From Elusimicrobiota bacterium (GTDB taxonomy: Bacteria > Elusimicrobiota > Elusimicrobia > F11): a stretch of DNA of 64,000 nt. The stretch's first letter is position 1; every line of letters starts with the position of its first letter. The notes beneath the pieces are model-generated. The model was not told the DNA's origin. It searched no databases and saw nothing but the letters and a program-made list of their open reading frames with translations. The position numbers were made by a program, and so were the translations under genes. The stretch covers positions 163,356 through 227,355 of the forward strand of contig JAJVIP010000002.1 in NCBI GenBank assembly GCA_022072025.1, in the 5' to 3' direction. Positions 7,386 to 26,770 of the stretch are shown here, in pieces.

Positions 7386-8564
7386 TTATTTGGGTCGAGG
7401 AGCTTCGCGGGGGAGATTAATGATCATGGGGGAACCATCGGCGGGAGGGGCCGCCGGGGCCGGAGGCGGTTCACTTCCCTCTTTTCCACTCCAAACCCCC
7501 CGATCGACCCCTCGTAGTTTGAGGGCCAGATCTTCAAGATTTGTGGCATGGTTCAAAGCTTCTTGAGTGGTGATGAGGTTTTGGGCGTGGAGATGTTCCA
7601 AATCCTGATCAAAGGTGTGCATGCCATAATAAGTGTCTTGGGAGAGCAGTCGAATCATTTCTTCAGTTCGTCCTTCTGCCAATAGTCTTTTTATAAAAGT
7701 GGTTCCTATCAATATTTCTGTGGCCGGATAGCGGTGACTGCCGTCAGTAGAACGGACCAGTCTTTGGGCCACAATTCCGGTGATCACGCCTGCCACCTGT
7801 TGACGAATAGAATTTTGTTCATGAGGGGGGAAGGCATCGACAATGCGGTTGACCCCATGAACCGCATCTATGGTGTGAATGGTTGATATCACCAGATGAC
7901 CTGATTCGGCTGCTGAAATGGCGGCCGCCATGGTCTCCACATCTCTCATTTCGCCAATGGCGATGACATCAGGGCTTTGACGAAGAACATTTTTCAGCGC
8001 GGCTTTGAAAGAACTCGTGTCATGACCCACTTCCCGTTGGGAAACGGAAGATTTGATGTCGGTGTGTATATATTCGATAGGATCTTCAACGGTAATGATG
8101 TTATAGGTGTAGTTCGCGTTCAGGTAATTGATTAAAGCATTCATCGTCGTTGTTTTGCCTGCGCCGGTGACGCCGGCGAACAAGATCAGTCCTCGTCCTT
8201 GGGAGACGAGTTTTTTGAGAGTTTGCGCGGGAAGATGCAAATCTTCAAAGGATTTAAGAGTGAGCGGAATGGTTCGAAGTGCCACGGCAACCGTTCCCTT
8301 TTGTCTGTAGAGATTAACCCGAAACCGACTAACTCCATCGACAGTGCAGGCGACGTCCAATTCATTTCGTTCGGAAAAGGCTTTTTGTTGTTCTGGAGAG
8401 AGTAAACTCTTTGATATTTCTTCTGTTTGCGCAGCGGTGAGAGGTTCGAGATTGGTTTGGACCAATTGGCCGTTAACACGGATCAGCGGGCAGGATCCAG
8501 GCTTAAAAAGAATGTCGGATATTCCGTCCCTCAACATCAGCTCAATTAATCGCTTATATTCCAT
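7386..8564 (-). CDS. pilT: PilT-type twitching motility ATPase
   Basis: Hexameric cytoplasmic ATPase that powers type IV pilus retraction. The 392-residue product has an N-terminal PAS-like domain, Walker A GVTGAGKTTT (131-140), an Asp box around EDPIEYIH (160-167), Walker B IAIGEMRDVET and the PilT/PilU His box GHLVISTIHTIDA (222-234). A Pro/Ala/Glu-rich tail of about 30 residues follows the catalytic core. A clear AGGAG site precedes the ATG. No other pilus gene is adjacent; the nearest upstream gene on the same strand is the HD-GYP protein, so a functional link through c-di-GMP is plausible but inferred. Confidence 0.93.
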   Translation of the reverse strand: MEYKRLIELMLRDGISDILFKPGSCPLIRVNGQLVQTNLEPLTAAQTEEISKSLLSPEQQKAFSERNELDVACTVDGVSRFRVNLYRQKGTVAVALRTIPLTLKSFEDLHLPAQTLKKLVSQGRGLILFAGVTGAGKTTTMNALINYLNANYTYNIITVEDPIEYIHTDIKSSVSQREVGHDTSSFKAALKNVLRQSPDVIAIGEMRDVETMAAAISAAESGHLVISTIHTIDAVHGVNRIVDAFPPHEQNSIRQQVAGVITGIVAQRLVRSTDGSHRYPATEILIGTTFIKRLLAEGRTEEMIRLLSQDTYYGMHTFDQDLEHLHAQNLITTQEALNHATNLEDLALKLRGVDRGVWSGKEGSEPPPAPAAPPADGSPMIINLPREAPRPK

Positions 8565-11685: not shown

Positions 11686-12810
11686 GTGATCGCTGTGCAA
11701 GATCCTATTCATCATCATGCGTTTGATTCGATACCCGCCCATGGAGGCGGTGTTCTGGTCCATCGCCATATCCCATCCAATGAAGAAAAAAAGAAACTCT
11801 CAAAAGCGGTTTCCCTCCCCAAAATTTCCATGTCTTCAAAAACATATACAGATCTTGAACTGTTGGCCGTTGGAGCTTTGTCGCCTTTGGAAGGTTTTTT
11901 GAATCAACAGGATTATGAGAGTGTTGTGGCCTGTGGTCGTTTATCCAATGGAGTTCTATGGCCTATTCCCATTTGTTTGGCGGTCAGCGATGAATCCAGA
12001 GTTTCTCTCTCTGAAGGGCAGATGGCCGCATTATATTACGATGATGAGGTGGTGGGTTTTATTCATGTCGAGTCCATTTTTTCGCCAGACAAAAATAAAG
12101 AGGTGTACCGCGTATTTAAAACCAATGATGTGAACCATCCAGGCGTCAGAGATGTTTTTAACAAGGGCAGCTGGTACGTGGGCGGCCGTGTGGATGTATT
12201 GATGAATTCTGATCGAATTGGGCTTTCGCCCTATAACCTAACTCCTCGTGATACCCGCCGTATTTTTCAACAAAAAAAATGGAAAACCATCGCTGGTTTT
12301 CAAACCCGCAACCCCATGCACCGAGGACATGAAGAGCTCACCAAAAAAGCGTTGGAGTCTGTTGATGGCCTTTTGATTCATCCGCTGGTGGGCGAAACCA
12401 AAGAAGGAGACTTTCCCGCTGATGTGCGCATGAAATCCTATGAGGTTTTAATTGAAACCTATTATCCCAAGGCTAGAGTCATTTTGGCCGCCTATCCAGG
12501 ACACATGTATTTTGCCGGCCCACGTGAGGCTATTTTTCACGCGATCATTCGTCAAAATTATGGTTGTACTCATTTCATTGTAGGACGGGACCATGCCGGA
12601 GTGGGTTCCTATTATTCTCCCTATGAAGCGCAAGAACTTATCAATTGGTTTGGCCGTAATGATCTCGCTATTCAACCCGTGTTTCCTTCTGTCCAATCCG
12701 CGGTTTCTGGAACTCAGATTCGAGAACTTCTTCGACAAGGAATTCCTCCATCACCTGATCTTATGAGGCCAGAAGTCACAAAAGTTCTTTTGGAGACCCC
12801 CAGGATATGA
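11686..12810 (+). CDS. sat: Sulfate adenylyltransferase (ATP sulfurylase, Sat type)
   Basis: Makes adenosine 5'-phosphosulfate from ATP and sulfate. The 374-residue product is the homomeric Sat/MET3 type, not CysDN: AHGGGVLVHR near the N-terminus, LSPLEGF, the nucleotide-binding QTRNPMHRGHEEL, and VGRDHAGVGSYYSPYEAQ. No APS-kinase domain is fused. The GTG start has GGGAG nine bases upstream. It heads a sulfur operon with cysK, an M67 peptidase and a siroheme reductase, which points to assimilation. The next step would need an APS or PAPS reductase, which is not in the window. Confidence 0.93.
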   Translation: MIAVQDPIHHHAFDSIPAHGGGVLVHRHIPSNEEKKKLSKAVSLPKISMSSKTYTDLELLAVGALSPLEGFLNQQDYESVVACGRLSNGVLWPIPICLAVSDESRVSLSEGQMAALYYDDEVVGFIHVESIFSPDKNKEVYRVFKTNDVNHPGVRDVFNKGSWYVGGRVDVLMNSDRIGLSPYNLTPRDTRRIFQQKKWKTIAGFQTRNPMHRGHEELTKKALESVDGLLIHPLVGETKEGDFPADVRMKSYEVLIETYYPKARVILAAYPGHMYFAGPREAIFHAIIRQNYGCTHFIVGRDHAGVGSYYSPYEAQELINWFGRNDLAIQPVFPSVQSAVSGTQIRELLRQGIPPSPDLMRPEVTKVLLETPRI

Positions 12811-12935
12811 GGTCCCAGTTCCATATTTTCTTCAATAGAAAACTTAAAGGTGTTGCTAATTTGGCGAATTCTTATGGAAACAGTGATGGCGATGTTTTTG
12901 ACGTGTTATTGGGTATTGGAAAGGCGACATTGTGA
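12807..12935 (+). CDS. Possible 42-residue ORF filling the sat-cysK gap
   Basis: An ATG overlapping the sat stop (ATGA) opens a 42-codon frame whose TGA overlaps the GTG of cysK (GTGA), so it fills the only sizeable gap in this operon exactly. The product starts MRSQFHIFFNRKLKG and contains GDVFDVLLGIG. It has no recognisable motif, signal peptide or cysteine. A sulfur-carrier gene (CysO/ThiS type) would be expected near an M67 peptidase and a cysteine synthase, but this frame is too short and lacks the terminal Gly-Gly. It may be a real small protein, a decayed remnant or chance. Confidence 0.3.
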   Translation: MRSQFHIFFNRKLKGVANLANSYGNSDGDVFDVLLGIGKATL

Positions 12936-13930
12936 ATCCCAACTCGATTGCATCTACCAAAAAATTGGGGCAGGGGCTCATGGAACGGATTGGAAACACG
13001 CCGCTCCTTCGGTTGGAAAGGTTTAGTCACTGGTTGGGGGACCACGGGTCCCAAATTTACGGGAAGGCAGAATTTTGCAACCCCGGTGGATCTGTAAAAG
13101 ACCGCGCCGCTCGCGGGATGATTTTGGGCGCCATTCAATCAGGTGAACTCACAAAAGAGAAAGTCATTTTGGATTCAAGCAGTGGCAATACCGGTATTGC
13201 CTACGCCATGATAGGCACAGCGCTGGGGTATCGCGTAGAACTTTGCATTCCAGAAAACGCCAAACTTAAAGCGCGTATTAGTGAAGCCTTTGGCGCCAAA
13301 GTAATTTATACGGATCCCTTGGAAGGATCTGATGGGGCTATTGTCAAAGCGCAGGAAATGTATAAATCCAATCCCAGCAGGTATTATATGCCCGATCAAT
13401 ACAACAACCCCAACAATTGGAAGGCGCATTATCACACCACCGCTGAAGAGATTTGGACACAAACGGAAGGACGTATCACTCATTTCGTGGCGGGCATTGG
13501 AACATCAGGCACCTTGATGGGAACGGGGCGCCGGCTCAAGGAATTAAATCCCAAAATTGAAATCGTGGCGGTGGAACCCTTTTCTGCTTTGCATGGTTTA
13601 GAAGGTTTGAAGCATATGGCTTCCTCTATTGTTCCAGGGATCTATGACCCCAAGGTGCATGACAAAAAAATCAGTGTGCACACGGAGGATGCTTATGAAA
13701 TGTGCTGTCGATTGGCCAGGGAAGAGGGGGTTTTGGTTGGGTTTTCAGCGGGGGCTGCTTTACAAGGCGCGTTTGAAGTTGCACTGGGAAAAAAAGAGGC
13801 GGTGGTGGTCACCGTATTGTGTGACGCAGGAGAGCGGTATATGAATTCTCAATTTTGGGAAGAAATGGTGAATTATTTTGAAAAGTACTGGAAGACACAC
13901 GACCAATTAAAGTCTCCCAGAGCACATTAA
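12932..13930 (+). CDS. cysK: Cysteine synthase (PLP-dependent, CysK/CysM family)
   Basis: Fold-type II PLP enzyme making L-cysteine from an activated serine and a sulfide donor. Visible motifs are RIGNTPLLRLERF, the PLP lysine in NPGGSVKDRAARG, the substrate loop SSSGNTGIAYAM, GIGTSGTLMGTGR and VGFSAGAALQG. At 332 residues it is slightly long. It uses a GTG start 121 bases after sat. The adjacent M67 peptidase recalls the actinobacterial CysM-CysO-Mec system, where the sulfur donor is a protein thiocarboxylate; whether that holds here cannot be told without a carrier gene. Confidence 0.92.
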   Translation: MNPNSIASTKKLGQGLMERIGNTPLLRLERFSHWLGDHGSQIYGKAEFCNPGGSVKDRAARGMILGAIQSGELTKEKVILDSSSGNTGIAYAMIGTALGYRVELCIPENAKLKARISEAFGAKVIYTDPLEGSDGAIVKAQEMYKSNPSRYYMPDQYNNPNNWKAHYHTTAEEIWTQTEGRITHFVAGIGTSGTLMGTGRRLKELNPKIEIVAVEPFSALHGLEGLKHMASSIVPGIYDPKVHDKKISVHTEDAYEMCCRLAREEGVLVGFSAGAALQGAFEVALGKKEAVVVTVLCDAGERYMNSQFWEEMVNYFEKYWKTHDQLKSPRAH

Positions 13931-13935
13931 ATTCG

Positions 13936-14436
13936 GTGCCTATGCAAATATCCACGGCCATTGTGTTTCCAAAAATTGTTTATGACCATATTGTTCTATG
14001 GGCGGAAAAGGCCTATCCCCATGAAGGGTGTGGGCTTCTGATTGGTCAATTTCTTAAAGGAGGCGTCAAGCAAGTGGTCCGTTTGTCTCCTTTGGTTAAT
14101 GAATTGTTAAGCCAAACGATCACAGACGCGCCGACCCTTCCCTCTGACCGGCAAGGACAAGGCGCAGGAAAAACTGAGTTTGTGATGAGCCCTTCGCAGT
14201 TCAACGAAGAAATGATAAAGGCGGAGCGGGAAGGATTGGATGTTGTTGGAGTGATTCACACTCATCCTGATCACCCAGCCCGGCCGAGTCAGATCGATGA
14301 ATCTCAACCCTTTTTATCGCAGTGGTCAAATATTATAGTCGCGGTTCATCAGGGGAAAGCGGTTGATGTAAAATCTTGGTACCGTGAATTTGACGGTCAA
14401 CTCTTTGATGAAGAAAAAATTCTCATCCAATCATGA
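13936..14436 (+). CDS. M67-family JAMM/MPN+ metallopeptidase (Mec-like)
   Basis: Zinc isopeptidase-like domain with an intact JAMM signature: the upstream glutamate in PHEGCGLLIG and HTHPDHPARPSQID, giving the H-x-H-P-x6-S-x2-D spacing. Length 166 residues, single domain, no signal peptide. In Mycobacterium a related enzyme (Mec) releases cysteine from the CysO carrier; bacterial homologues commonly sit with cysteine synthase and ThiF/MoeB-like genes. Here it lies between cysK and the siroheme reductase, which supports a sulfur-transfer role. Start GTG 13936 or ATG 13942. Its stop overlaps the next start (ATGA). Confidence 0.87.
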   Translation: MPMQISTAIVFPKIVYDHIVLWAEKAYPHEGCGLLIGQFLKGGVKQVVRLSPLVNELLSQTITDAPTLPSDRQGQGAGKTEFVMSPSQFNEEMIKAEREGLDVVGVIHTHPDHPARPSQIDESQPFLSQWSNIIVAVHQGKAVDVKSWYREFDGQLFDEEKILIQS

Positions 14437-16190
14437 AGAAGGAGTCTTATATGTTGTTAGCGCCCGAAGTTGAAGAGGAATTGGTTCGTTTCGAAGATAA
14501 CATCAAGTTGCTTCGATCTGGGCGCATGGATCCCAATGAATTCAAGAAGTTTCGTTTGAACAATGGTGTTTATGGTATTCGCGGTGAAACAGATTTACAG
14601 ATGATCCGAATTAAATGTCCTCATGGGGAGATCACTTCAGATCAATTGGATGTGGTGGCTGAACTGACCGAGAAATTTACTCGAACCAAAATGGCCCACG
14701 TCACCACCCGTCAAGCCATTCAAATTCATCATGTTCATTTGGACAACATTCCGCTGGCTCTTCGCCGATTGGCTGAATGCGGTTTAACATCGCGTGAGGC
14801 CTGTGGAAATACTGTGCGTAACGTAACCAAAACGCCTTATGCGGGGTTTCTTAAAGATGAAGTGTTTGACGTAACCCCTTACGCTCAGGCCATTTTTGAA
14901 CATTTTTTAAGAAATCCAGCGGTTCAAAATTTCCCTCGAAAATTCAAGATTGCTTTTTACGGGGGAGGTTCGGCAGATATTGCATACACGGCGATTCATG
15001 ATTTGGGATACGTGGCAGCCAAACGGGTCGTCAATGGAAAAGAAGAAAAAGGATTTAGAATTTATGTGGGTGGTGGGCTTGGCGCCACACCTCACTCGGC
15101 GATTTTGCTTGAGGAGTTTACGCCGCTATCTGATTTTTTCTCCACCGCTGACGCCATCACCCGAATCTTCGATCGTCACGGCGACCGGAAAGATAAATTC
15201 CACGCGCGCCTTAAATTTGTGGTGAAGAAATTTGGCGACGACGTTTTCCGCCAGATGGTGATTGAGGAGCGTTCCCAAGTTCGCGCCACGCGAGCGGGGG
15301 GATGGAAATGGGTTTTTCCGATAGAAAAACCTTTGGTTGCCCCTGTTTTAACTCAGAAAGTCGGCGGGGATGTGAAACCCGACGCGGCATTTGAGCTGTG
15401 GCGAAAAACGAATGTTCTTCCGCAAAAACAAGAGGGTTTTTCAATGGTGACGGTGGTTACCCCTTTGGGAGATTTGACAGTTCCCCAAATGAGAACGTTG
15501 GCCAACATAGCTCGTAAATACAACGCCGGTCAATTGCGCACCATGGTTCAACAAAATATGTTTTTGCCTTGGATTCGAAACGAACATTTGGTGGCGCTAT
15601 ATGCGGAACTCAAAGCGGCAGGCCTGGGATCAGGAGGAGCACTTCGTTTGTCGGACGTGACCCGATGCCCAGGGGCTGATACCTGTCAAATCGCAGTGAC
15701 AAAATCGAGAGGTTTGGCGGGTGCCATTCTTGAACTTTTCAAAAATGGACTGGCTCAAGATGCCGATATGAATGATTTGGCCATTAAGATTTCAGGTTGC
15801 ACCAATTCTTGCGGTCAACATCACATTGGCAATATCGGTTTTTTTGGGACTTATCGGAAAGTGAACGGACATGAGGTCCCTCACTATCAACTCTTAATTG
15901 GGGGGGATGTCAAAGAAGGCGAGGCCAAATTTGGCCAACCCATCAATGCCATTCCGGCCAAGCGAGCCCCTGAGGTCGTTAAACACTTGGTTGGTCTTTA
16001 TAAGAAGGAGAAGCAGGGTTCAGAAAGATTCGTTGCAACCATGGAGCGACTGGGGCGCGTGCGGCTCAAAGAAGAAATCGAACCCTTCCGAAGTTTGCCT
16101 CCTTTTGAAGAAAAGCCCGATATGTATTATGAGTGGGGCGAATATCATGAATTTAAGGCCGAAATCGGACAAGGAGAATGCGCGGCGTAA
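14433..16190 (+). CDS. Siroheme/4Fe-4S sulfite or nitrite reductase (ferredoxin type)
   Basis: Two-repeat NirA/Sir-type reductase of 585 residues that reduces sulfite to sulfide or nitrite to ammonia with six electrons. The cluster and siroheme ligands are complete: C412 and C418 in CPGADTC, then C456 and C460 in GCTNSCGQHH. The N-terminal ferrodoxin-like repeats show VTTRQAIQIHHV and GNTVRNVT. Gene context (sat, cysK) favours assimilatory sulfite reduction; sequence alone does not separate the two substrates. The start overlaps the peptidase stop, and it is the last gene of the operon before a strong promoter. Confidence 0.9.
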   Translation: MKKESYMLLAPEVEEELVRFEDNIKLLRSGRMDPNEFKKFRLNNGVYGIRGETDLQMIRIKCPHGEITSDQLDVVAELTEKFTRTKMAHVTTRQAIQIHHVHLDNIPLALRRLAECGLTSREACGNTVRNVTKTPYAGFLKDEVFDVTPYAQAIFEHFLRNPAVQNFPRKFKIAFYGGGSADIAYTAIHDLGYVAAKRVVNGKEEKGFRIYVGGGLGATPHSAILLEEFTPLSDFFSTADAITRIFDRHGDRKDKFHARLKFVVKKFGDDVFRQMVIEERSQVRATRAGGWKWVFPIEKPLVAPVLTQKVGGDVKPDAAFELWRKTNVLPQKQEGFSMVTVVTPLGDLTVPQMRTLANIARKYNAGQLRTMVQQNMFLPWIRNEHLVALYAELKAAGLGSGGALRLSDVTRCPGADTCQIAVTKSRGLAGAILELFKNGLAQDADMNDLAIKISGCTNSCGQHHIGNIGFFGTYRKVNGHEVPHYQLLIGGDVKEGEAKFGQPINAIPAKRAPEVVKHLVGLYKKEKQGSERFVATMERLGRVRLKEEIEPFRSLPPFEEKPDMYYEWGEYHEFKAEIGQGECAA

Positions 16191-16198
16191 ATTGTTTT

Positions 16199-16227
16199 TT
16201 GACAGCGGAAAAACTTTGTCTTATGAT
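16199..16227 (+). promoter_or_regulatory. Near-consensus sigma-70 promoter driving the histone-ubiE-nuo operon
   Basis: TTGACA (16199-16204), a 17-base spacer, then TATGAT (16222-16227): a perfect -35, optimal spacing and 5 of 6 at -10. The expected transcript start is near 16234, leaving a leader of about 90 bases before the histone ATG. It starts 9 bases after the reductase stop. It is the best promoter match I found in the window. Confidence 0.75.
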
Positions 16228-16288: not shown

Positions 16289-16308
16289 CATCTCATTGAG
16301 GTGAGATG
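16289..16308 (+). promoter_or_regulatory. Stem-loop just upstream of the histone ribosome-binding site
   Basis: CATCTCA, six-base loop TTGAGG, TGAGATG: a perfect 7-bp stem. It ends one base before AAAGGAG, the ribosome-binding site of the histone gene. Such placement can tune mRNA stability or translation. There is no T-run, so it is not an intrinsic terminator. Confidence 0.5.
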
Positions 16309-16323
16309 TAAAGGAGATTACTC

Positions 16324-16503
16324 ATGTCTGAAGTCTATGTGGTTGTCAGCAAAGTGAAGAAAAAAGTGAAAGAAGCAGGTTTTCGCACTGGGAAAGATTA
16401 TACCGATGCGCTCTCCGCCAAAATCGAACAGATTGTGAATGCTTCAGTCGAAAAAGTGAGGATGGACGGAAAAAAGAAAACTTTGGGGGCTGAAGACCTT
16501 TGA
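16324..16503 (+). CDS. Bacterial histone (single histone-fold protein, Bd0055-like)
   Basis: A 59-residue basic protein with ATG at 16324 and a strong AAAGGAG site. It starts MSEVYVVVSKVKKKVKEAG, has a long central helix (about residues 25-46: ALSAKIEQIVNASVEKVR) and ends DGKKKTLGAEDL, the loop-2 and short alpha-3 pattern of histone folds. From memory it aligns almost end to end with the Bdellovibrio histone Bd0055, sharing the S-K-V-K-K start, the central I-E-Q helix and the final D-G-(R/K)-K-T ... A-x-D. Known relatives form dimers that bind DNA. It heads the ubiE-nuo operon behind a near-consensus promoter, and its TGA overlaps a possible ubiE TTG start. Identification is by pattern; no profile search was run. 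Confidence 0.82.
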   Translation: MSEVYVVVSKVKKKVKEAGFRTGKDYTDALSAKIEQIVNASVEKVRMDGKKKTLGAEDL

Positions 16504-17210
16504 GCGTATCCGTTTCACACCCTCCTATGTCCACTAAACCCATCCGGGATATGTTTGATGCACTGGTCCCGGAATATGACCGATTTAATCGGCTTAGCAG
16601 TTTGGGGTTGGACGTTCTTTGGCGCCGTGAAGTGGCCAGTATGTTTTCCAAGGGATCTTATATATTGGATGTGGGAACGGGGACGGGTGATTTGGCGAAG
16701 GAATTGGTTTCACAGGGGATGGACGTGGTGGGAGTGGATTTCTCCTCCAAAATGTTAGACGCGGCCAAAGAGAAAATGGCGGGAAATCCGCATGTTGTTT
16801 TTGAACTGGCCAAAGCCGATGAGCTTCAATTTGGGCCGCGAACCTTTGACGGAATCACTTCCGCCTTTGTGATTAGAAATCTTCATCACGGAAACATATT
16901 GTCTCAGAGTTTTCGTGAGTTTTATCGGGTTTTAAAACCACAAAGTCAAATGATTCACTTAGAACTTTCCCGCCCACCCAGTGGTTTTCTTTCTTGGGGA
17001 CACAAGGCCTATCTTAAGTTTATTCTTCCCTTAATTGGCCGAGCCAATTTTGGTGAAAGATGGCCCAAAGATTACCTTTCAACAACAATTGAAAAATTTC
17101 CCGAGCCCAAAATTTTGTGCCAACAAATGAGATGGGCAGGGTTTGAAAGGGTTTGTCACTATCCGTTGAATGGGGGTATTGCCGGTTTGTTTGTGGGGTG
17201 GCGATGCTGA
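16500..17210 (+). CDS. ubiE: Demethylmenaquinone/ubiquinone C-methyltransferase UbiE/MenG
   Basis: SAM-dependent methyltransferase for the last ring methylation of menaquinone (or a ubiquinone step). Motifs: FDALVPEYDRFNRLSSLGLD at the N-terminus, the SAM loop DVGTGTGDLAKEL, GVDFSSKMLDAAK, and FVIRNLHH with a C-terminal [15 protein letters not shown]. Two starts are possible: TTG 16500, overlapping the histone stop as TTGA (236 residues), or ATG 16527 (227 residues). It overlaps nuoA by 7 bases. Its place in front of complex I, with a polyprenyl synthase at the far end, suggests quinone supply; the exact quinone is not determined. Confidence 0.92.
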   Translation: MSVSVSHPPMSTKPIRDMFDALVPEYDRFNRLSSLGLDVLWRREVASMFSKGSYILDVGTGTGDLAKELVSQGMDVVGVDFSSKMLDAAKEKMAGNPHVVFELAKADELQFGPRTFDGITSAFVIRNLHHGNILSQSFREFYRVLKPQSQMIHLELSRPPSGFLSWGHKAYLKFILPLIGRANFGERWPKDYLSTTIEKFPEPKILCQQMRWAGFERVCHYPLNGGIAGLFVGWRC

Positions 17211-17566
17211 ATTTAACGGAATATGCGGGCCTGTTGGCTTTTTTGTTTTTTGGTGTGGCTTTCGTGGGGGGCGTTTTCGCGCTGAATTATTTGGTCAGAG
17301 AACGTGGCATGGACCCCTTGCGAAAAAGCATTTATGAATGCGGCATGGAAACCATTGGCACACCCTATGTTTCTCCCAATATTCGGTTCTATGTGTTCGC
17401 ATTGGTGTTTGTTATTTTTGATATTGAAGCCGTTTTCCTTCTCCCTTGGGCAGTTAGGTTCAAAGAATTGGGAATGGTTGGGTTTATTGAAATGATTGTT
17501 TTTATCGCCATTCTGTTCGTGGCTTTTGTTGTGGCCTGGAGAAAAGGCGCCCTCAAGTGGGAATAA
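17204..17566 (+). CDS. nuoA: NADH-quinone oxidoreductase subunit A
   Basis: Small membrane subunit of complex I with three hydrophobic segments and the conserved [20 protein letters not shown] block followed by [16 protein letters not shown] 17204 gives 120 residues, the usual size; the longer open frame from 17153 lies inside ubiE and is unlikely. It is the first of eleven nuo genes. Confidence 0.95.
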
Positions 17567-17576
17567 AGGAATTGAT

Positions 17577-18167
17577 ATGAGCAACAGTTTGATCTTGGAG
17601 AAACTTCCAGCCCTTCGGCAATACAAAATGCCTGGAGGGGAATTTATTTTGACGACAGTTGACTTTTTTATTGACTGGTCCCGAAAATCTTCTATTTGGC
17701 CGCTTACCTTTGGATTGGCTTGCTGCGCTATCGAGATGATGGCGGCTTATGCCTCTCGTTATGATTTTGATCGGATAGGCGTTATTCCTCGTCCGACCCC
17801 TCGCCAAGCCGATTTAATGATTATTGCTGGAACCGTGGTTAAAAAAATGGCACCTGCCGTTGAGACCCTCTATCACCAAATGCCTGAACCTAGGTTTGTG
17901 ATCTCCATGGGGGCCTGCTCCAATTGCGGCGGCCCTTATTATGATTCTTACTCCGTTTCGAAGGGAGTCGATAAAGTTATTCCGGTTGATATTTATGTCC
18001 CGGGATGTCCTCCGCGTCCTGAGGCGCTTTACACCGCCATCGTGGCGCTGCAACAAAAAATTGAAAAATATTATGACGCGGGCAAACGTATCGCTAAACC
18101 CAGTATGCCCACCAACGCAGTCTTGAAAGAAATCAATGCCGCCGCCGTTCAGGCGCGTTCATCATAA
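17577..18167 (+). CDS. nuoB: NADH-quinone oxidoreductase subunit B
   Basis: Peripheral complex I subunit carrying cluster N2, the last iron-sulfur centre before quinone. Cysteine ligands are visible in [22 protein letters not shown] and [14 protein letters not shown] 17577 has AAAGGA upstream and gives 196 residues, with a C-terminal tail of about 35 residues beyond the core. Confidence 0.97.
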
Positions 18168-18178
18168 GTTGTCGAGCA

Positions 18179-18718
18179 ATGTATTCCGCTGAACTTTGTC
18201 AGACCCTTATCAAAAGATTCCCTGAAGTTTCTTTTGTTTCAGTTCCAGATAAATTTGTGAGGGATCCGGAACCTCAGGTGAGAGTGCCAGTCAATAAACT
18301 GGTGGAAGTTTGCCGGTTTTTAAAAACCGATCCACAGATGCAATTCGATGTGCCCCTTCAAATGACGGCTGTTGATTACATCAAAGACAATGTGTTTGAA
18401 CTGGTTTACTATCTTTACTCCTCGAAGAAAAAACATGCGTTGGTTCTTAAAGCGCAGGTGTCCCGCGCTGATGCCATTGTAGATTCCGTGACCTCTGTTT
18501 GGTCGGGTATGGATTGGCAAGAACGGGAAGTGTATGACTTGATGGGGATTACCTTTAAAGGTCATCCAAATTTAAAACGCATCATGATGTGGGAAGGCTT
18601 TCCCGGATATCCGCTTCGCAAAGACTATGTTCACGTGACTGATAAATACGATTCGGGACTTGAGGTAGGAACCCCCGGACTCAATGAAAAAGGTATTCCC
18701 ATCTCGGGGAAAAACTAA
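18179..18718 (+). CDS. nuoC: NADH-quinone oxidoreductase subunit C
   Basis: 30-kDa-type subunit of the complex I connecting domain, 179 residues. It has the signature WQEREVYDLMGITFKGHPNLKRI and GYPLRKDYV. It is separate from nuoD, unlike the fused NuoCD of enterobacteria. ATG 18179 lies 11 bases after nuoB. Confidence 0.96.
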   Translation: MYSAELCQTLIKRFPEVSFVSVPDKFVRDPEPQVRVPVNKLVEVCRFLKTDPQMQFDVPLQMTAVDYIKDNVFELVYYLYSSKKKHALVLKAQVSRADAIVDSVTSVWSGMDWQEREVYDLMGITFKGHPNLKRIMMWEGFPGYPLRKDYVHVTDKYDSGLEVGTPGLNEKGIPISGKN

Positions 18719-18720
18719 TC

Positions 18721-19887
18721 ATGACAAGCAATAGTTATTCCACATCCAGTCTCGCCAAAGGCCCTGTTTTTGAAACAAAAATTGAGCAAGTGGGCGAAAA
18801 TGAAATGCTGCTCAATTTGGGCCCCCAACACCCCTCCACTCACGGAGTTCTCCGCGTGGTTCTCAAGTTGGATGGAGAAGTGATAACCGACGCTGAATGC
18901 GATTTGGGCTATTTGCACCGAGGCGTTGAAAAGCTGGCCGAAAACCGAACTTATCCCATGATTATCGTCCTTTCGGACCGGGACGATTATCTCTCTGCCA
19001 TGAACAACAATTGGGCCTATTGTATGGCTGTCGAAAAACTTCTCAAAGCCGAAATCCCCATTCGCGCTGATTATATTCGAGTGATTGTTGGAGAATTGAA
19101 CCGCATCGCCTCCCATATGGTGTTTTACGGAACTTTTGGTATTGATATCGGCGCTTTCACTCCGTTCTTGCATGCCTTTGGACGGGACCGTGAAGAAATT
19201 TTAGACCTCTTTGAAGAAATTTGTGGGGCGCGTATCACCTATAACTTTGTGCGGGTGGGGGGTGTCATGTTGGACGTCCCAGAAGGATGGATCGGCCGAG
19301 TGAAAGCTTTTGTGGAGAGAATGAAACCTCGATTGGAAGAGTACGATGGTCTTCTGACTTATAACCCTATTTTCATGGACCGGACCATCGGCGTGGGGCA
19401 GTTGCCCGCTCACACTGCATTGGATTTGGGTGTAACGGGGCCGGCGCTTCGAGGTTCGGGAATTCAAATGGATTTGCGCAAGGATCATCCCTACAGTGTT
19501 TACAAGGATTTCAAATTTGATGTGCCCGTGGGTAAAAATGGCGATTGTTATGATCGATTTATGGTCAGACGTCGAGAGATGAGCGAATCACTTAAGATTG
19601 TTGAACAAGCCTGTGACAAGTTTCCAGAGGGACCCATCATGGGGAAAGTTGGAAAAGTATATCGCCCTGGGCCAGGCGAAGTGTACACACAACATGAAGG
19701 ACCGAGAGGATGGCTGGGTACCTATATTGTTTCAGATGGAACCGATCGCCCTTACCGTCTCCACATTCGTCCTCCCTCATTCATTAATTTACAAGCGCTC
19801 AAGGAATTGGTGAAAGGTTGGAAGGTGGCTGATGTGATCGCAATTTTGGGGTCGCTTGATTTCGTTTTGGGCGAGGTGGACCGATGA
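18721..19887 (+). CDS. nuoD: NADH-quinone oxidoreductase subunit D
   Basis: 49-kDa-type subunit that lines the quinone site. Motifs: LNLGPQHPSTHGVLR, DCDLGYLHRG-like block (here DAECDLGYLHRGVEK), RDDYLSAMNNNWAY, ELNRIASH and the C-terminal SLDFVLGEVDR. 388 residues, normal length. The stop overlaps the nuoH start (ATGA). Confidence 0.97.
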   Translation: MTSNSYSTSSLAKGPVFETKIEQVGENEMLLNLGPQHPSTHGVLRVVLKLDGEVITDAECDLGYLHRGVEKLAENRTYPMIIVLSDRDDYLSAMNNNWAYCMAVEKLLKAEIPIRADYIRVIVGELNRIASHMVFYGTFGIDIGAFTPFLHAFGRDREEILDLFEEICGARITYNFVRVGGVMLDVPEGWIGRVKAFVERMKPRLEEYDGLLTYNPIFMDRTIGVGQLPAHTALDLGVTGPALRGSGIQMDLRKDHPYSVYKDFKFDVPVGKNGDCYDRFMVRRREMSESLKIVEQACDKFPEGPIMGKVGKVYRPGPGEVYTQHEGPRGWLGTYIVSDGTDRPYRLHIRPPSFINLQALKELVKGWKVADVIAILGSLDFVLGEVDR

Positions 19888-21167
19888 GTGAAGCGGCGTC
19901 TGTTCCACCAACTCAAATAACCGCGCCAACCGCGTCGGCGGTGGTTTCCCCGCCTGATGCTCGCATGGCGGCCTATCTCACCAAATGGGATGAAAAGCGA
20001 ACCCGAATGCAACAAAGTCGCAAGCGGGCCGGAATATGGTTGGCTGGAATTTTGGTGGTTTTAACAGGGGGCATTATCGCAGTCGGAGAGCTTCATCCCT
20101 TTTTCATTGCCGGTCGGGACTTTGTCGCTGAGTTTTGTCTTAAAAACAATATATCGCCTCTTGTTCCCATGATTATTTCTTTGAGTGTGCCTGCGCTTCT
20201 TCTAAATCTATTGATGCAAGCGGCTCCTGGTGTTTTGGTGTGGTGGGAAAGAAAAGTCGCCGCTCATATGCAGCTTCGTCTGGGCCCCATGGATGTGGGC
20301 GGATGGCATGGTTGGGCCCAAACGCTTGCAGACGGAATCAAGTTGCTTCTTAAAGAAATTATTGAACCCACGGGAGTTGATAAATGGGTGTTTCGCATGG
20401 CGCCAGTTGTGGTGATATTGCCCTGCTATTTATCCTTCGCTCCGCTTCCATTCGGCAATGGTCTTGTGGCCCTCGATTTCGACATCGGACTTGTGTATGT
20501 GTTGGCTGTTTCGGGCCTTTCTACCATTGGGATTCTTATGGCCGGTTGGGGTTCGGCCAATAAATTTTCTCTGTTGGGGGGGCTTCGTGCTGCGGCGCAA
20601 GTGGTTTCCTTTGAGATTCCTCGTGTGTTGTCGACGGTCCCAGTGGTGATGTGGGCGGGGACTCTTTCACTCACGGGTATAGCGGCTCAACAAGCCGAGC
20701 CATTGGGGGGGTGGTTTCCTCGATGGTTTATTTTCTACCCCATTGTCGGACAAATCAGTTTTATCGTTTATCTTATTACCACCATCGCGGAAACCAATCG
20801 CGTTCCCTTTGATGTTCCTGAAGCGGAATCTGAACTGACGGCGGGCTTTCATACTGAATATGGGGGAATGAAATTCGCCATCTTTTTTATGGCGGAATAT
20901 GCCTATGTGGTGGTGGGATCGGTATTGGGCGCCACATTATTTCTCGGTGGCGGAGCCGCGCCGGTTCCGTTTTTAAATTTTATTCCATCCTGGGCTTGGC
21001 TGGCATTTAAAACCCTGGCTCTAATTTTTGTCTTTCTCTGGTCTCGCTGGACATTCCCTCGTCTCCGAGTGGACCGGGTGATGGACTTGTGTTGGAAAAT
21101 TTTTATTCCATGGACTTTGATCAATATCTTGATTGCAGGATTTATGATGTTGTGGAGAAATAGCTGA
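19884..21167 (+). CDS. nuoH: NADH-quinone oxidoreductase subunit H
   Basis: Membrane subunit that joins the quinone cavity to the proton pumps. Family blocks include ERKVAAHMQLRLGPMDVGG, ADGIKLLLKE, ETNRVPFDVPEAESELTAGF and TEYGGMKFAIFFMAEY. At 427 residues it is about 80-90 longer than common NuoH: residues 1-60 form a Pro/Ala/Thr-rich then charged soluble extension before the first membrane segment. The ATGA overlap with nuoD supports this long start. Confidence 0.95.
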   Translation: MSEAASVPPTQITAPTASAVVSPPDARMAAYLTKWDEKRTRMQQSRKRAGIWLAGILVVLTGGIIAVGELHPFFIAGRDFVAEFCLKNNISPLVPMIISLSVPALLLNLLMQAAPGVLVWWERKVAAHMQLRLGPMDVGGWHGWAQTLADGIKLLLKEIIEPTGVDKWVFRMAPVVVILPCYLSFAPLPFGNGLVALDFDIGLVYVLAVSGLSTIGILMAGWGSANKFSLLGGLRAAAQVVSFEIPRVLSTVPVVMWAGTLSLTGIAAQQAEPLGGWFPRWFIFYPIVGQISFIVYLITTIAETNRVPFDVPEAESELTAGFHTEYGGMKFAIFFMAEYAYVVVGSVLGATLFLGGGAAPVPFLNFIPSWAWLAFKTLALIFVFLWSRWTFPRLRVDRVMDLCWKIFIPWTLINILIAGFMMLWRNS

Positions 21168-21685
21168 TGTTTTGGGATCTCAAGAAAATATTTCGCATCA
21201 CGACAGGAACCCTGAAGGGGATGATGATCACGCTTAAATATTATTTTCAACCAGCGGTGACGTTCCAATTTCCACGCGAAAGAAAACCCACTCCGGAGCG
21301 ATTTCGAGGGGTGTTATCTTTTCATCCGGAGGTTTGCATTTCTTGCGAAATGTGTGTGCGCGTTTGCCCCTCAGATGTCATCTCCATGGAATGGGTCCGC
21401 AATGAAGAGACAAAAAAGAAGGATTTGAAGTGGTATCAAATCGATTTTTCTAAATGCAATGTGTGCCGTCTTTGCGAAGAAGCATGTCCTACCAAAGTGA
21501 AGTCCATTCATCACTCAAATGAATATGAAGTTGTGTTCGAAGGGAGAAAGGATTTCCTCGTGAAATGGGGGCCCACCACGCAAGACACTGTGGAAGCTGG
21601 ACCCAAAGCGCAGGAATGGTATCGGTTTATGCCAGACGGTCGCAGAGAAAAAATTTCAACACCTGAAGTGGCGGAGAAAGTGTGA
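21167..21685 (+). CDS. nuoI: NADH-quinone oxidoreductase subunit I
   Basis: Two-cluster ferredoxin-like subunit, 172 residues. Both 4Fe-4S motifs are complete: CISCEMCVRVCPSD and CNVCRLCEEACPTK. It passes electrons to NuoB. Its ATG shares one base with the nuoH stop. Confidence 0.97.
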   Translation: MFWDLKKIFRITTGTLKGMMITLKYYFQPAVTFQFPRERKPTPERFRGVLSFHPEVCISCEMCVRVCPSDVISMEWVRNEETKKKDLKWYQIDFSKCNVCRLCEEACPTKVKSIHHSNEYEVVFEGRKDFLVKWGPTTQDTVEAGPKAQEWYRFMPDGRREKISTPEVAEKV

Positions 21686-22182
21686 TGGTTCAATCCATAA
21701 TTTTTTCATTTCTGGCGGTCCTGGTTTTGTTCCCGGCGGTTTTGGTGGTGACTTCCAAAAATGTGTTTCATTCGGCCTTGTGGTTAATTCTTTCTCTTGC
21801 CGGAGTGGCTGGTATGTATGCTCTGTTGGCGGCTGACTTCCTGTTTGCGGTTCAATTGCTGGTCTATATTGGGGGAGTCACGATTGTCCTTTTGTTTGTC
21901 ATTTTGCTTTCCGGCAAACCCTCTGATTGGGCGGGACGGCAGGTCAACGAAAAAGCGTGGGCGGCCGGTTTGTTTTCATTGTTTCTGTTAGCCGCGTTGG
22001 GTTCTTTTGTGAGTGAGTGGCCGCTGGTGCCGGTCACATCTGCTCCCAAGTTAACATCGGGTCCCTTGGGTGAACTCCTTTTTCGTGAGATGGTTCTTCC
22101 CACAGAACTGATTTCATTTGTGTTGGTGGCCGCTTTGGTGGGAGCCATCTATTTTTCTGTTAAAAAAAGAGGGCCTTCCTAA
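21685..22182 (+). CDS. nuoJ: NADH-quinone oxidoreductase subunit J
   Basis: Hydrophobic complex I subunit with about five membrane segments and the family pattern KNVFHSALWLILSLAGVAG, then LLAADFLFAVQLLVYIGG. The start is ATG 21685 (sharing one base with the nuoI stop) or the GTG three bases earlier. About 165 residues. Confidence 0.94.
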   Translation: MVQSIIFSFLAVLVLFPAVLVVTSKNVFHSALWLILSLAGVAGMYALLAADFLFAVQLLVYIGGVTIVLLFVILLSGKPSDWAGRQVNEKAWAAGLFSLFLLAALGSFVSEWPLVPVTSAPKLTSGPLGELLFREMVLPTELISFVLVAALVGAIYFSVKKRGPS

Positions 22183-22487
22183 TGTCGATCCAACTTTTTC
22201 TTCTTGTGGGTGTGGCCTTGTTTTCGATTGGCGTGTATGGGGTATTGGCCCGGCGAAATATCGTTGGCATTTTGATGTCAGTCGAGCTGATGTTTAACGC
22301 GGCAGGGATCAACTTTGTGGCTTTTAACCGTTATTTGCATCCAGATGGAGTTTGGGGCCAAGGATTCGTTCTTTTTATTATTGCGTTGGCCGCGGCAGAA
22401 GCTGTGGTGGGGTTGGCGCTGGTGCTTACTTTCTATCGGGGTTCCAAAACCGTTTTGGTTGAGAAAATGAACCTGCTTCAAGGGTGA
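22182..22487 (+). CDS. nuoK: NADH-quinone oxidoreductase subunit K
   Basis: Three-segment MnhC/NuoK-type membrane subunit, 101 residues, with GVYGVLARRNIVGILMSVEL carrying the conserved membrane glutamate, and ALAAAEAVVGLALVL with the second one. It shares one base with nuoJ. Its stop overlaps the next gene, which is not a nuo gene (GTGA). Confidence 0.95.
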   Translation: MSIQLFLLVGVALFSIGVYGVLARRNIVGILMSVELMFNAAGINFVAFNRYLHPDGVWGQGFVLFIIALAAAEAVVGLALVLTFYRGSKTVLVEKMNLLQG

Positions 22488-23209
22488 GTATAAATTGGAG
22501 TGAAAAACGACGAGACAAGCGGCTTGATCTCTCGTTAGATCGGTTCCTGACAGTTCATTTGCTGAGTCAAAATGTGGGTTCGGATACGGCAGAAACATTG
22601 GTGGCTCAGGTCAGAAACGTCAGCGTCCGGGGATGTGGTCTTATTTTTTCAAACGCGTCAGACCGTGAGCGGTTGGGCGCAAAGAAGATTTTTTTGATTT
22701 CTTTGGTGGTGGATGGTTTTTCTATCCCAATTCAAGTTGAAGTGGTTCGTCTCATTGGAGACAAAGAGGCTGCCGTGAAGTTTAAAGCACCTTATCCACG
22801 TGAACTTGAGAAACTGGAAAGATTTTTAGAGCCACGGTTCTTGGGGAAATCTCTGAGGGAGATTGATCCATCAAAACTTCAAAGGAACCAACAAAAGGAT
22901 TTTCGATGGTTTCAAGGGACGAACGAAACCCATCTGTATTCCTGGGGAAATCCGGGAGAGGATGGGACGATCCAACAACAGTTGGTTTTTCTGGACTGGG
23001 TGGTGGAATGGAAAGGTGGAGGTTCGGCTCAAACGGGGACGATTCGGCGCGATGAACGCTCCAAAACCGGGGATGTGGGATGGGTTGTCTCAGAGCTGCT
23101 GGATTTTGATGCGGTTCCAGATCCCACGGTTTTGAAACAGGCAAAAATTTTAATCGAATCTTCAACCATCGAAGAGAAAATAAAAAAAGAGTTTTTGAAG
23201 CGGCTATAA
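22484..23209 (+). CDS. PilZ-domain protein embedded in the nuo operon
   Basis: A 241-residue soluble protein between nuoK and nuoL. The N-terminal part fits a PilZ c-di-GMP-binding domain: the RxxxR motif in EKRRDKRLDL (about residues 8-14), then RNVSVRGCGLIF matching (D/N)xSxxG about 35 residues later, followed by beta-rich sequence to about residue 105. The C-terminal 130 residues, with many Trp, Gly and charged residues, match nothing I recognise. GTG 22484 overlaps the nuoK stop, so it is translationally coupled; nuoL starts 12 bases after its end. No membrane segment or signal is visible. Link to complex I is by position only. Confidence 0.72.
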   Translation: MSINWSEKRRDKRLDLSLDRFLTVHLLSQNVGSDTAETLVAQVRNVSVRGCGLIFSNASDRERLGAKKIFLISLVVDGFSIPIQVEVVRLIGDKEAAVKFKAPYPRELEKLERFLEPRFLGKSLREIDPSKLQRNQQKDFRWFQGTNETHLYSWGNPGEDGTIQQQLVFLDWVVEWKGGGSAQTGTIRRDERSKTGDVGWVVSELLDFDAVPDPTVLKQAKILIESSTIEEKIKKEFLKRL

Positions 23210-23221
23210 AAGGAAAAAAAT

Positions 23222-25213
23222 ATGTCGGGTGAAGTCTTGTTACAACATAGTTATTGGATCGCGCTGGCTCCCTTGTTGGCGTTTGTTGTCATTTTGGTGC
23301 TTCGAAATTTTGTGGGGCTTCAAGGCGCGTGGGTTGGCACTGTGGCCATGTTTTATTGTTTCGTTCATTCCCTTTTGATAGCTCTGGGGATTTTTTTCGA
23401 AAGAATTCATTTGCCCAATACGGGATTACAGGGGCATTTTTTTGAGTCAACCTATACTTGGTTCAGCGCAGGGAATTTTGATTTTCGCGTTGGCCTTTTG
23501 ATTGACGGTCTTTCCGCCATGATGTTGGTGGTGGTCACGCTCGTGTCATTTCTCGTTCAGCTCTACTCCATTTCTTACATGCATGAACACCGCCGATATG
23601 GCCGGTATTTTGCGTACGTGAATTTGTTCACTTTTTCCATGTTGGTTTTGGTGTTGGCGAACGATATGCTCCAATTTTTCATCGGATGGGAGTTGGTGGG
23701 GTTGTGCTCCTACTTGCTCATCGGGTTTGATTTTGAGCGTGACGCAGCGGGATATGCCGGGCGCAAAGCTTTCTTAACCACAAAAGTGGGCGACTTGGGG
23801 ATGTACCTCGGACTTTTGATTATTTTTAATTATTTAGGGACTTTCAATATTCCGCTGCTTCATCAGAATTATCAAAATATGGCTTCATTGAATTACCCGG
23901 GATGGGTCCTTCTTATGGTTCCCCTTCTTCTTTTCTTTGGCGCGATGGGAAAGTCGGCTCAATTTCCTCTCCATGTGTGGTTGCCAGACGCCATGGAAGG
24001 CCCCACTCCGGCTTCTGCTCTCATTCACGCTGCGACCATGGTGGCGGCGGGTGTGTACATGGTGGCGCGAGTTTTCTTCCTTTTTGAGGCCTCTCCCCTT
24101 GCTATGGACGTGGTGGCTTGGGTGGGTGTCGCAACTGCGGTTGTGGCCGCCAGTATGGGCTTGGTCTCGGAAGACATTAAACGGGTGTTGGCTTTTTCTA
24201 CCGTTAGTCAACTTGGATTTATGATGGTGGCCTTGGGCTGTGGTGGATATGCCGCTGGAATGTTTCATTTAACAACCCACGCTGCGTTTAAAGCGTTGTT
24301 GTTTCTTTGCGCTGGAAGTGTCATCCATGCTGTTCATACGAATGATATGTGGAAAATGGGAGGTCTCAAAACCCAAATGCCCATCACGTGCGCAGCCTAT
24401 TTAGTTGGGACTTTGGCCATCGCCGGATTTCCATTTATGTCGGGTTTTTTCTCAAAAGAAGAGGTTTTGGCGGCGGCCTATAATCACAATCCTCTTATTT
24501 TTGGCTTACTTTCCTTCGCCGCTCTTTTAACGTCCTTTTATATGTTCCGCTCACTTTTTCTGACCTTTTTTGGGCTACCGCGCGACAAACATTTGTTTCA
24601 ACATGCTCATGAGTCTCCTTTGTTGATGACAATTCCTCTGATGGTGTTGGCGCTGCTCTCCATTTTTTTGGGAGGAACGCTGTATCATGATGGGAATCTC
24701 GCGCGTTTGATCAGTTGGGGGAGTCACGGGGCGGAACAACATCACGCAAGTCACGTGGTTTTGTATTCCTCTCTTTCTGCGTTCGGCCTGGGATTTGTGG
24801 GGGCTTTTTGGGTTTATCTTTCAAAACCGCCGCGATATGAGTTTCTACAACAGAAGTTCGCTCTTCCGCACAAGCTCCTCTCGCGACGGTATCTAATTGA
24901 TGAATTGTATCTGTGGTTCATCGGAAATATATACACACCTGTGACCACCTGGTTTGCAAAAACCGACTACGATGTCGTTGATCAATTTATTGTTGATGGG
25001 TTTGGTCGAATGGGGAAAAGATTTTCATGGGTCAGCGATTTGTTTGATGGAAAATTTGTTGACCGCGTTTTGGTTGATGGCCAAAGTGATTTGGCCAATT
25101 GGGCGGGGGACAAAATCCGCAAAGTGCAGTCAGGTTTGGCGCAAAGTTATTTGTTTTGGATGATCTTGGGGCTGGGTGGAATGATCGTCTGGATTTCTCA
25201 TAATTTCAAATAG
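23222..25213 (+). CDS. nuoL: NADH-quinone oxidoreductase subunit L
   Basis: Antiporter-like proton-pumping subunit with the long lateral helix, 663 residues. Recognisable blocks: LQLYSISYMH-type segment (here VQLYSISYMHEHRRYGRYF), FFIGWELVGLCSYLLIGF, GAMGKSAQFPLHVWLPDAME, GPTPASALIHAATMVAAGVY and AFSTVSQLGFMMVALG. A ribosome site AAAAGGA precedes the ATG. Confidence 0.96.
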   Translation: MSGEVLLQHSYWIALAPLLAFVVILVLRNFVGLQGAWVGTVAMFYCFVHSLLIALGIFFERIHLPNTGLQGHFFESTYTWFSAGNFDFRVGLLIDGLSAMMLVVVTLVSFLVQLYSISYMHEHRRYGRYFAYVNLFTFSMLVLVLANDMLQFFIGWELVGLCSYLLIGFDFERDAAGYAGRKAFLTTKVGDLGMYLGLLIIFNYLGTFNIPLLHQNYQNMASLNYPGWVLLMVPLLLFFGAMGKSAQFPLHVWLPDAMEGPTPASALIHAATMVAAGVYMVARVFFLFEASPLAMDVVAWVGVATAVVAASMGLVSEDIKRVLAFSTVSQLGFMMVALGCGGYAAGMFHLTTHAAFKALLFLCAGSVIHAVHTNDMWKMGGLKTQMPITCAAYLVGTLAIAGFPFMSGFFSKEEVLAAAYNHNPLIFGLLSFAALLTSFYMFRSLFLTFFGLPRDKHLFQHAHESPLLMTIPLMVLALLSIFLGGTLYHDGNLARLISWGSHGAEQHHASHVVLYSSLSAFGLGFVGAFWVYLSKPPRYEFLQQKFALPHKLLSRRYLIDELYLWFIGNIYTPVTTWFAKTDYDVVDQFIVDGFGRMGKRFSWVSDLFDGKFVDRVLVDGQSDLANWAGDKIRKVQSGLAQSYLFWMILGLGGMIVWISHNFK

Positions 25214-25230
25214 ATGAAAAGGAGTTGGCT

Positions 25231-26769
25231 GTGAATCTACCTCTGTTGTCGTTGTTGACGTTTCTACCGCTGATAGGCGGGTTGATCATAATGTTTTCTG
25301 ATAAGGAAAATAGGGCTTTTCATAAAAATATTGCAACCGCTTTCGCGTTATTTACCTTTGTGCTTTCGTTGGGATTGCTGACAAAATTCGATGCTTCTAC
25401 CCACCTTCCTCAATTTGTGGAAAGATATCAATGGATTTCGAGTTTTAATATCGATTATTACATGGCCGTTGACGGACTTTCATTTCCCTTGGTCCTATTA
25501 ACCACCTTCTTGAGTCTCATCTCCGTTGTTGCCTCTTTTGGAATCGAAAAGCGCACAAAAGAATATTTCTTTTGGTTTATGATGCTAGAAACCGGCATGT
25601 TGGGTCTATTCGTGGCTTTGGATTTTTTCCTTTTTTACGTCTTCTGGGAGATTACGTTGGTCCCTATGTATTTCTTGATTGGTGTCTGGGGAGGACCCAA
25701 ACGAGAATACGCAGCCGTCAAATTTTTCCTGTTTACGCTTTTCGGTAGCGTGTTTATGTTGTTGAGCATGATCGCTCTTTATTTCGCCAGTGGCAGCGGT
25801 TTACCTGGCAATGAACGAACGTTGGATCTCATTCGACTCTCTGAGTTGGCGCACAATGGACAGCTACAGCTTGTCGGCACCGCCGCTATGTTGGTTTTTT
25901 TGGGGCTTTATTTGGCGTTTGCGATCAAGGTGCCGGCTTTTCCATTCCACACATGGTTGCCTCTCGCACACGTTGAAGCCCCCACCGCGGTTAGTGTGAT
26001 TCTGGCAGGGGTCTTGCTTAAGATGGGGACCTACGGAATCTTACGTGTTTGTTATCCCATCATGCCGGAACAGACCAAACTTTTCTTGCCTATCCTGGTT
26101 GTAATCGCTTGTATCAATATCGTTTACGGCGCTTTCTGCGCGATGGCCCAAAAAGATATGAAACGGATGGTGGCCTATTCTTCAGTGAATCACATGGGTT
26201 ATTGTTTGTTGGGAATGGCGGCAGTCATGGGGAACTCCAATGCGGCTCATGCGGGGTTATCCGGTGCCGTTCTTCAAATGGTCACGCACGGTATCATCAC
26301 CGGGTCACTCTTTTTGTTGGTGGGAGTCATTTATGACCGGGCTCACACGCGTGAGATTGATGCCTTTGGTGGGCTTGCCACCAAAATGCCGATCTTTGCC
26401 GGGTTTATGATTATGCAATGTATGGCTTCGTTGGGATTGCCGGGTTTGGCGGGATTTATTTCTGAATTCCTTTGCTTCTTGGGCGGTTTTGGTGGAAGTT
26501 TCGGAGGTTTTAATTTCAAAATTTGGGTATCGATATCGGTTATCGGAATTGTCGTGACGGCTGCTTTTTTCTTGAGGATGCTCAAACTTGTTCTGATGGG
26601 GGAATTTAATGCCAAATGGGAAGGTCATATGCCTGACCTGACAACCCGTGAACTGGTGACCATCGTTCCCTTGGCAGTTTTTACGTTGGTTTTGGGAATT
26701 TATCCAGCGTTGGTTTTGAGGTTGATGGATACCACATTGGCCCAATTAATTAAGTTGGTGGCTGGATAA
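25231..26769 (+). CDS. nuoM: NADH-quinone oxidoreductase subunit M
   Basis: Second antiporter-like subunit. Blocks: FYVFWEITLVPMYFLIGVWG, AIKVPAFPFHTWLPLAHVEA, PTAVSVILAGVLLKMGTYG and VAYSSVNHMGYCLLG. I choose GTG 25231, six bases after GGAG, giving 512 residues; the TTG at 25225 would sit on the ribosome site. Confidence 0.96.
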   Translation: MNLPLLSLLTFLPLIGGLIIMFSDKENRAFHKNIATAFALFTFVLSLGLLTKFDASTHLPQFVERYQWISSFNIDYYMAVDGLSFPLVLLTTFLSLISVVASFGIEKRTKEYFFWFMMLETGMLGLFVALDFFLFYVFWEITLVPMYFLIGVWGGPKREYAAVKFFLFTLFGSVFMLLSMIALYFASGSGLPGNERTLDLIRLSELAHNGQLQLVGTAAMLVFLGLYLAFAIKVPAFPFHTWLPLAHVEAPTAVSVILAGVLLKMGTYGILRVCYPIMPEQTKLFLPILVVIACINIVYGAFCAMAQKDMKRMVAYSSVNHMGYCLLGMAAVMGNSNAAHAGLSGAVLQMVTHGIITGSLFLLVGVIYDRAHTREIDAFGGLATKMPIFAGFMIMQCMASLGLPGLAGFISEFLCFLGGFGGSFGGFNFKIWVSISVIGIVVTAAFFLRMLKLVLMGEFNAKWEGHMPDLTTRELVTIVPLAVFTLVLGIYPALVLRLMDTTLAQLIKLVAG

Positions 26770-26770
26770 A

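Follow-up and report, generated by a model that had tools for sequence, protein, structure and literature searches.

Only in recent years have histones of bacteria come to be recognized as chromatin proteins. One of them, HBb (Bd0055) of Bdellovibrio bacteriovorus (PDB 8fvx, 8cmp, 9ezz, 9f0e), is an abundant nucleoid protein; it bends DNA as a dimer (PMC11317129), while the two crystallographic papers on HBb disagree about its DNA-bound form, which is described either as a sheath on straight DNA or as bending it (PMC11317129). The main survey of these proteins counts Elusimicrobiota among the holders of bacterial dimer histones and describes α3 histones as single-gene operons (Schwab et al. 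2024, PMC11390915). Histones encoded in conserved multi-gene operons are known as well, namely the RdgC and IHF histones, the latter reported from Elusimicrobiota too (Schwab et al. 2024, PMC11390915). The locus described here resembles these in its multi-gene arrangement, but RdgC and IHF histones are partnered with RdgC-like, IHF-like, or membrane proteins instead of respiratory complexes, and they carry extra C-terminal parts that our 59-residue protein lacks. No earlier report of a link between a histone and the complex I genes (nuo) was found in the literature searched, which did not cover subscription papers and preprints; as far as this literature shows, a histone-complex I operon has not been described before.

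The window, i.e., the whole stretch of 64,000 nucleotides that was analyzed, comes from an Elusimicrobiota genome and contains on its forward strand an ORF of 59 codons (16324-16503), with an ATG start, a TGA stop at 16501-16503, and a Shine-Dalgarno sequence, aaaggag, at 16310-16316. It is present as a single copy, the sole other match in a search of the same genome having an E-value of 0.35. Counterparts were identified in 38 of 59 other genomes in the first search of relatives, nearly all of them full length and with 62-83% identity, and 22 positions are invariant in an alignment of 28 members. Pairwise dN/dS values are mostly 0.06-0.24; therefore, this is a coding gene under purifying selection, a real and conserved gene far beyond a chance ORF. 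The encoded protein has a pI of 9.5. It is not detected by any Pfam or NCBIfam model, and the HU/IHF domain (PF00216) is absent from it in the Pfam search, while HU is encoded elsewhere in the window's own genome (2 matches).

The first-pass annotation had read this protein as a Bdellovibrio-type histone with a complete histone-fold pattern, and the fold call was supported. Its best sequence match in the PDB is HBb (phmmer, E 2e-7), followed by HLp and HTkC, and the family profile matches HBb with an E-value of 8.5e-12. An AlphaFold2 model based on the family alignment predicts helices at residues 2-17 and 24-48 and a three-residue helix at 56-58 (mean pLDDT 83, pTM 0.55). The first 6 Foldseek matches of this model in the PDB are all α3 histones, comprising HLp, the HBb entries, and the archaeal histone HTkC (TM about 0.7, probability 0.99-1.00). 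The modest pTM and the Foldseek E-values of 0.006-0.09 are due to the small size of the protein. The comparison with histone folds that had been proposed as a check thus came out in favor, albeit on monomer models only. Furthermore, several defining features of the HBb group are present: the model has a truncated α3 (the predicted helix 56-58, against 3-4 residues in the group), α2 is short relative to archaeal histones (helix 24-48, aligned to HBb without gaps), and the sequence falls with HBb, as judged by the best PDB match and without re-clustering of all prokaryotic histones. We therefore consider the window protein, from sequence and model, a well supported member of the α3-truncated "bacterial dimer" histones (HBb/Bd0055, HLp), with a distinct residue pattern.

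With HBb it shares the length, the truncated α3, the SK motif and lysines of α1, the KT of loop 2, and D58, while identity is only 43-47%, loop 1 is one residue shorter, loop 2 one residue longer, and the C-terminus slightly shorter. HLp of Leptospira perolatii (PDB 9qt0) is likewise a small bacterial histone and the best Foldseek match (TM 0.69-0.72), but is only about 30% identical (phmmer E 0.0015). HTkC, the face-to-face histone of Thermococcus kodakarensis (PDB 9f2c), is α3-truncated too and has an aligned loop-1 arginine; it differs in being archaeal, in its 32% identity, and in forming tetramers by the published account.

The residues that touch DNA in HBb are listed in PMC11317129. Six of them (S9, K10, K12, K16, K52, and T53) are present in the window histone, and the SK motif with the α1 lysines, a further mark of the HBb group, is invariant in 28 sequences (S9, K10, K12, K13, and K16). 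The group's RKT...D motif with its RD clamp is retained only in part: KT and D58 are kept, R51 is replaced by lysine, turning the R51-D58 clamp into K51-D58, and the next contact, R57, is an invariant glutamate in the Elusimicrobiota histone. In HBb, R57 is the second strongest DNA contact (PMC11317129). Moreover, T8 of HBb is replaced by valine, S24 aligns with G23, and N22 aligns with an invariant arginine, R21. DNA binding may therefore differ from that of HBb, as far as can be judged from the exchanges R57 to E and R51 to K. R21 in turn aligns with the arginine in loop 1 of HTkC; as a guess from the alignment alone, it might serve as the sprocket arginine, which is missing from HBb. Given these altered residues and the low identity, "Bdellovibrio-type" is an apt label at the level of the group but not beyond it. 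The variant with K51, E57, and R21 can be compared with HBb, for which the mode of DNA binding is under dispute.

The histone gene lies between a sulfite/nitrite reductase gene (14433-16190; PF01077, PF03460) and ubiE-nuo, as first annotated. Just after the former, at 16199-16227 on the forward strand, there is a near-consensus sigma-70-type promoter (TTGACA-17-TATGAT), for which no start has been measured. A similarly placed TTGACA-18-TATGAT occurs in 2 genomes of the same family (L035 and L039). A strong promoter of this type precedes the histone in only 15 of 54 nuo-linked relatives, so that a universal sigma-70-like promoter can be rejected. The leader also contains an 8-bp hairpin just before the Shine-Dalgarno sequence (16289-16308, forward strand, z -2.9), and L035 and L039 have hairpins of different sequence at the same position. 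Such hairpins are confined to part of the window's family, and a search of the leader against Rfam gave no match; an RNA element was thus discarded.

Downstream, all genes follow in the same direction: ubiE, encoding a menaquinone/ubiquinone methyltransferase (16500-17210; PF01209, E 1.4e-37); nuoA (17204-17566; PF00507, E 2.8e-32); nuoB (17577-18167), nuoD (18721-19887), and nuoH (19884-21167), assigned from the ORF list and relatives; nuoC (18179-18718; PF00329); nuoI (21167-21685; 4Fe-4S ferredoxin domains and operon position); nuoJ (21682-22182; PF00499); nuoK (22182-22487; PF00420); a PilZ-domain gene, possibly for a c-di-GMP receptor (22484-23209; PF07238, E 2e-5); nuoL (23222-25213), nuoM (25225-26769), and nuoN (26771-28246), again from the ORF list and relatives; and a polyprenyl synthase for the quinone side chain (28240-29223; PF00348). 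The described overlap of the histone stop with a possible ubiE start is real: a TTG at 16500, in the reading frame of ubiE, shares nucleotides with the TGA at 16501-16503. The alternative start is an ATG at 16527 in the same frame, and either way there is no space for a terminator after the histone gene. The gene order ubiE-nuoA-N suggested earlier needs correction, as it is ubiE-nuoABCDHIJKLMN, and nuoEFG are absent from the nuo operon (17204-28246). Since, in addition, NuoF (PF01512) has no match in the whole genome, the operon encodes a complex I of 11 subunits that does not necessarily take its electrons from NADH, which weakens NADH as a theme of the operon. Directly upstream of the histone, the window carries a sulfate assimilation cluster (11686-16190) that includes an ATP sulfurylase-like protein, a cysteine synthase-like enzyme, a JAB-domain protein, and the sulfite reductase; 4 other loci (L034, L044, L057, and L088) also have parts of this cluster ahead of the histone.

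The linkage between histone and nuo, kept across 12 families, is our main finding. We searched 341 genomes of the phylum, most of those compared being metagenome assemblies with anonymous family labels (f1-f29), with the histone profile (98 positive) and the nuoA family PF00507 (164 positive), and compared positions in 97 genomes with a strong histone match. Of the 74 genomes with the histone in the window's class, 64, from 12 families and including a complete chromosome (L047, CP096137), have nuoA 110-1272 nt downstream of the histone on the same strand; the proposal to look for homologs ahead of ubiE/nuo in related genomes was thus answered positively. In 3 more genomes of the class (G003, G213, and G214), the contig breaks off at the ubiE or midA that comes after the histone, and a ubiE- or midA-like remnant precedes nuoA on another contig. 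Of the remaining 7, five show nothing of this nuo lineage in the matches listed, and 2 belong to family f14, where nuo is mostly of another type and also occurs without the histone. Outside f14, 2 genomes have this nuo without a histone in front (G021 and G195), and none was found in the phylum comparison that has both but apart. As other classes carry the histone without nuo, neither requires the other.

What surrounds this pair is variable. In the named loci, histone and nuoA are separated by ubiE in some families and by midA (PF02636, to which the complex I assembly methyltransferase NDUFAF7 belongs) in others, and 4 loci have no gene between the two (L060, L071, L081, and L088). The estimated gap from the histone to the next start is mostly 10-35 nt in relatives, start codons being uncertain, and no terminator was detected there between the two. 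The commonest upstream gene cluster, in opposite orientation, is common to only 17 of 45 loci, and among 31 genomes examined the polyprenyl synthase adjoins nuoN in 12, every one of which belongs to the ubiE half of the class. As these 31 were chosen as histone carriers and contig ends interrupt a few of them, the comparison offers guidance rather than a test. Because false ORFs on the reverse strand of GC-rich genomes obscured the clustering of neighboring ORFs, neighbors were identified by protein searches. Unlike the window histone, the HBb-like loci of Bdellovibrionota that were examined have no nuo or rex neighbors.

Rex is a sensor of NADH/NAD+. Neighbors mapped in all loci reveal, in pieces across classes, an older order uvrB-nadC-birA-LUD-rex-histone. 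A rex match above the cut-off was obtained in 12 of 60 genomes examined, and 6 of these have rex directly ahead of the histone (families f6, f11, f12, and f25, from 2 classes), with nuo following in 4 of the 6. One such locus, L057 (rex from about 7321, histone 8001-8177), has a perfect Rex-type palindrome, TTGTGA-N6-TCACAA (TTGTGATGTGTTTCACAA site), at 7281-7298, just upstream of rex-histone-ubiE-nuo; from a simple base count, about 0.002 exact matches would be expected in this locus. Rex-like sites in L088 and L102 were discounted, having 2 mismatches each, with that in L088 overlapping the rex start. In families f16 and f18, which lack nuo, rnfC and rnfD are found 1.5-3 kb downstream of the histone (L065, L073, L104, and L139), which is flanked by nadC or a LUD-domain gene on one side and, in f18, by aroB on the other, and in genus g35 a pyridine-nucleotide oxidoreductase gene follows the histone. 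Since the histone neighbors in f19, f22, f23, f24, and f29 are unrelated, the redox theme is common but not universal. For the window lineage, direct redox control is not claimed, as no PF06971 match to rex was found in the genome and no Rex box near the operon.

What was observed is the homology, the predicted fold, the promoter sequence, the close spacing of genes that run in one direction, and the conserved arrangement in 12 families. The reading that we prefer, to which we assign a probability of about 0.77, is that a DNA-binding, α3-truncated histone is the first gene of one unit with ubiE or midA and the complex I genes, and that these are made together. By homology to HBb and without binding data, the histone would form a dimer, bind DNA without sequence preference, and bend it, presumably acting as a nucleoid protein beside HU. 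Co-transcription with ubiE (midA in other families) and complex I genes is likewise inferred: the strong promoter just upstream would drive the unit, so that the histone and part of the respiratory chain would be produced together, for which transcript and protein data are lacking. DNA packaging and energy metabolism may thus be switched on together in Elusimicrobiota. Whether the linkage is kept because the supply of a nucleoid protein matches growth or energy state is a further inference that we put forward only tentatively. More speculative still, and rather unlikely as a whole, is a redox regulon in which Rex would let NADH/NAD+ set the amount of histone in rex-histone-(ubiE)-nuo, the linkage to nuo or Rnf would be kept after loss of rex, and compaction would follow energy state. 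A deeply conserved operon of a histone and a respiratory complex, with a redox sensor ahead of it in some families, makes it directly testable whether bacteria tune genome packaging to energy metabolism.

The most serious alternative, with a chance not far below even, is that this is an ordinary global histone whose place before nuo is inherited gene order without function, kept by inertia or for a convenient strong promoter. The occurrence of each partner alone, the histone in other classes and nuo in f14, fits this, as do the older neighborhood of housekeeping genes (uvrB, nadC, and birA), still visible in several classes, and the histone loci of the HBb type in Bdellovibrionota, Deltaproteobacteria, and Chlamydiae, which have neither nuo nor rex nearby. 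However, the adjacency has outlasted changes of the intervening gene, of the gene after nuoN, and of the upstream neighbors, and outside f14 it was never found broken up where both partners occur. Since the intervening gene and the gene after nuoN vary across the class, plain inertia is an incomplete account; we read the changing surroundings as favoring selection for the adjacency, but without a genome-wide null for the retention of gene pairs, inheritance alone continues to be a serious rival.

Two other readings concern the protein itself. It could be a local regulator, a histone-fold protein recruited to control the nuo operon rather than a global nucleoid protein, and its position as first gene, its retention with one operon type over 12 families, its 22 invariant residues, and the HU matches that can cover general packaging are all compatible with this. 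We nevertheless regard it as quite improbable, since HBb binds the whole genome without sequence preference (PMC11317129), the histone persists beside other genes where nuo is absent, and the upstream regions outside the window's family have no operator-like repeat in common. That the protein is no histone at all but another small basic protein, e.g., an antitoxin, a ribbon-helix-helix regulator, or a complex I assembly factor, is hardly tenable: the lack of a Pfam or NCBIfam model and the constant linkage to complex I genes leave room for it, but all specific sequence and structure matches are histones, there is no toxin-like partner gene, and the gene is kept in lineages without complex I.

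Furthermore, it should be noted that the large families f10 and f21, mostly with small genomes, have no histone, and for nuoA they give weak matches at best. Several genomes additionally contain, away from nuo, another histone-like ORF that is highly divergent (E 1e-3 to 1e-7; G032:C59, G218:C47, G005:C18, G057:C49, and G059:C24).
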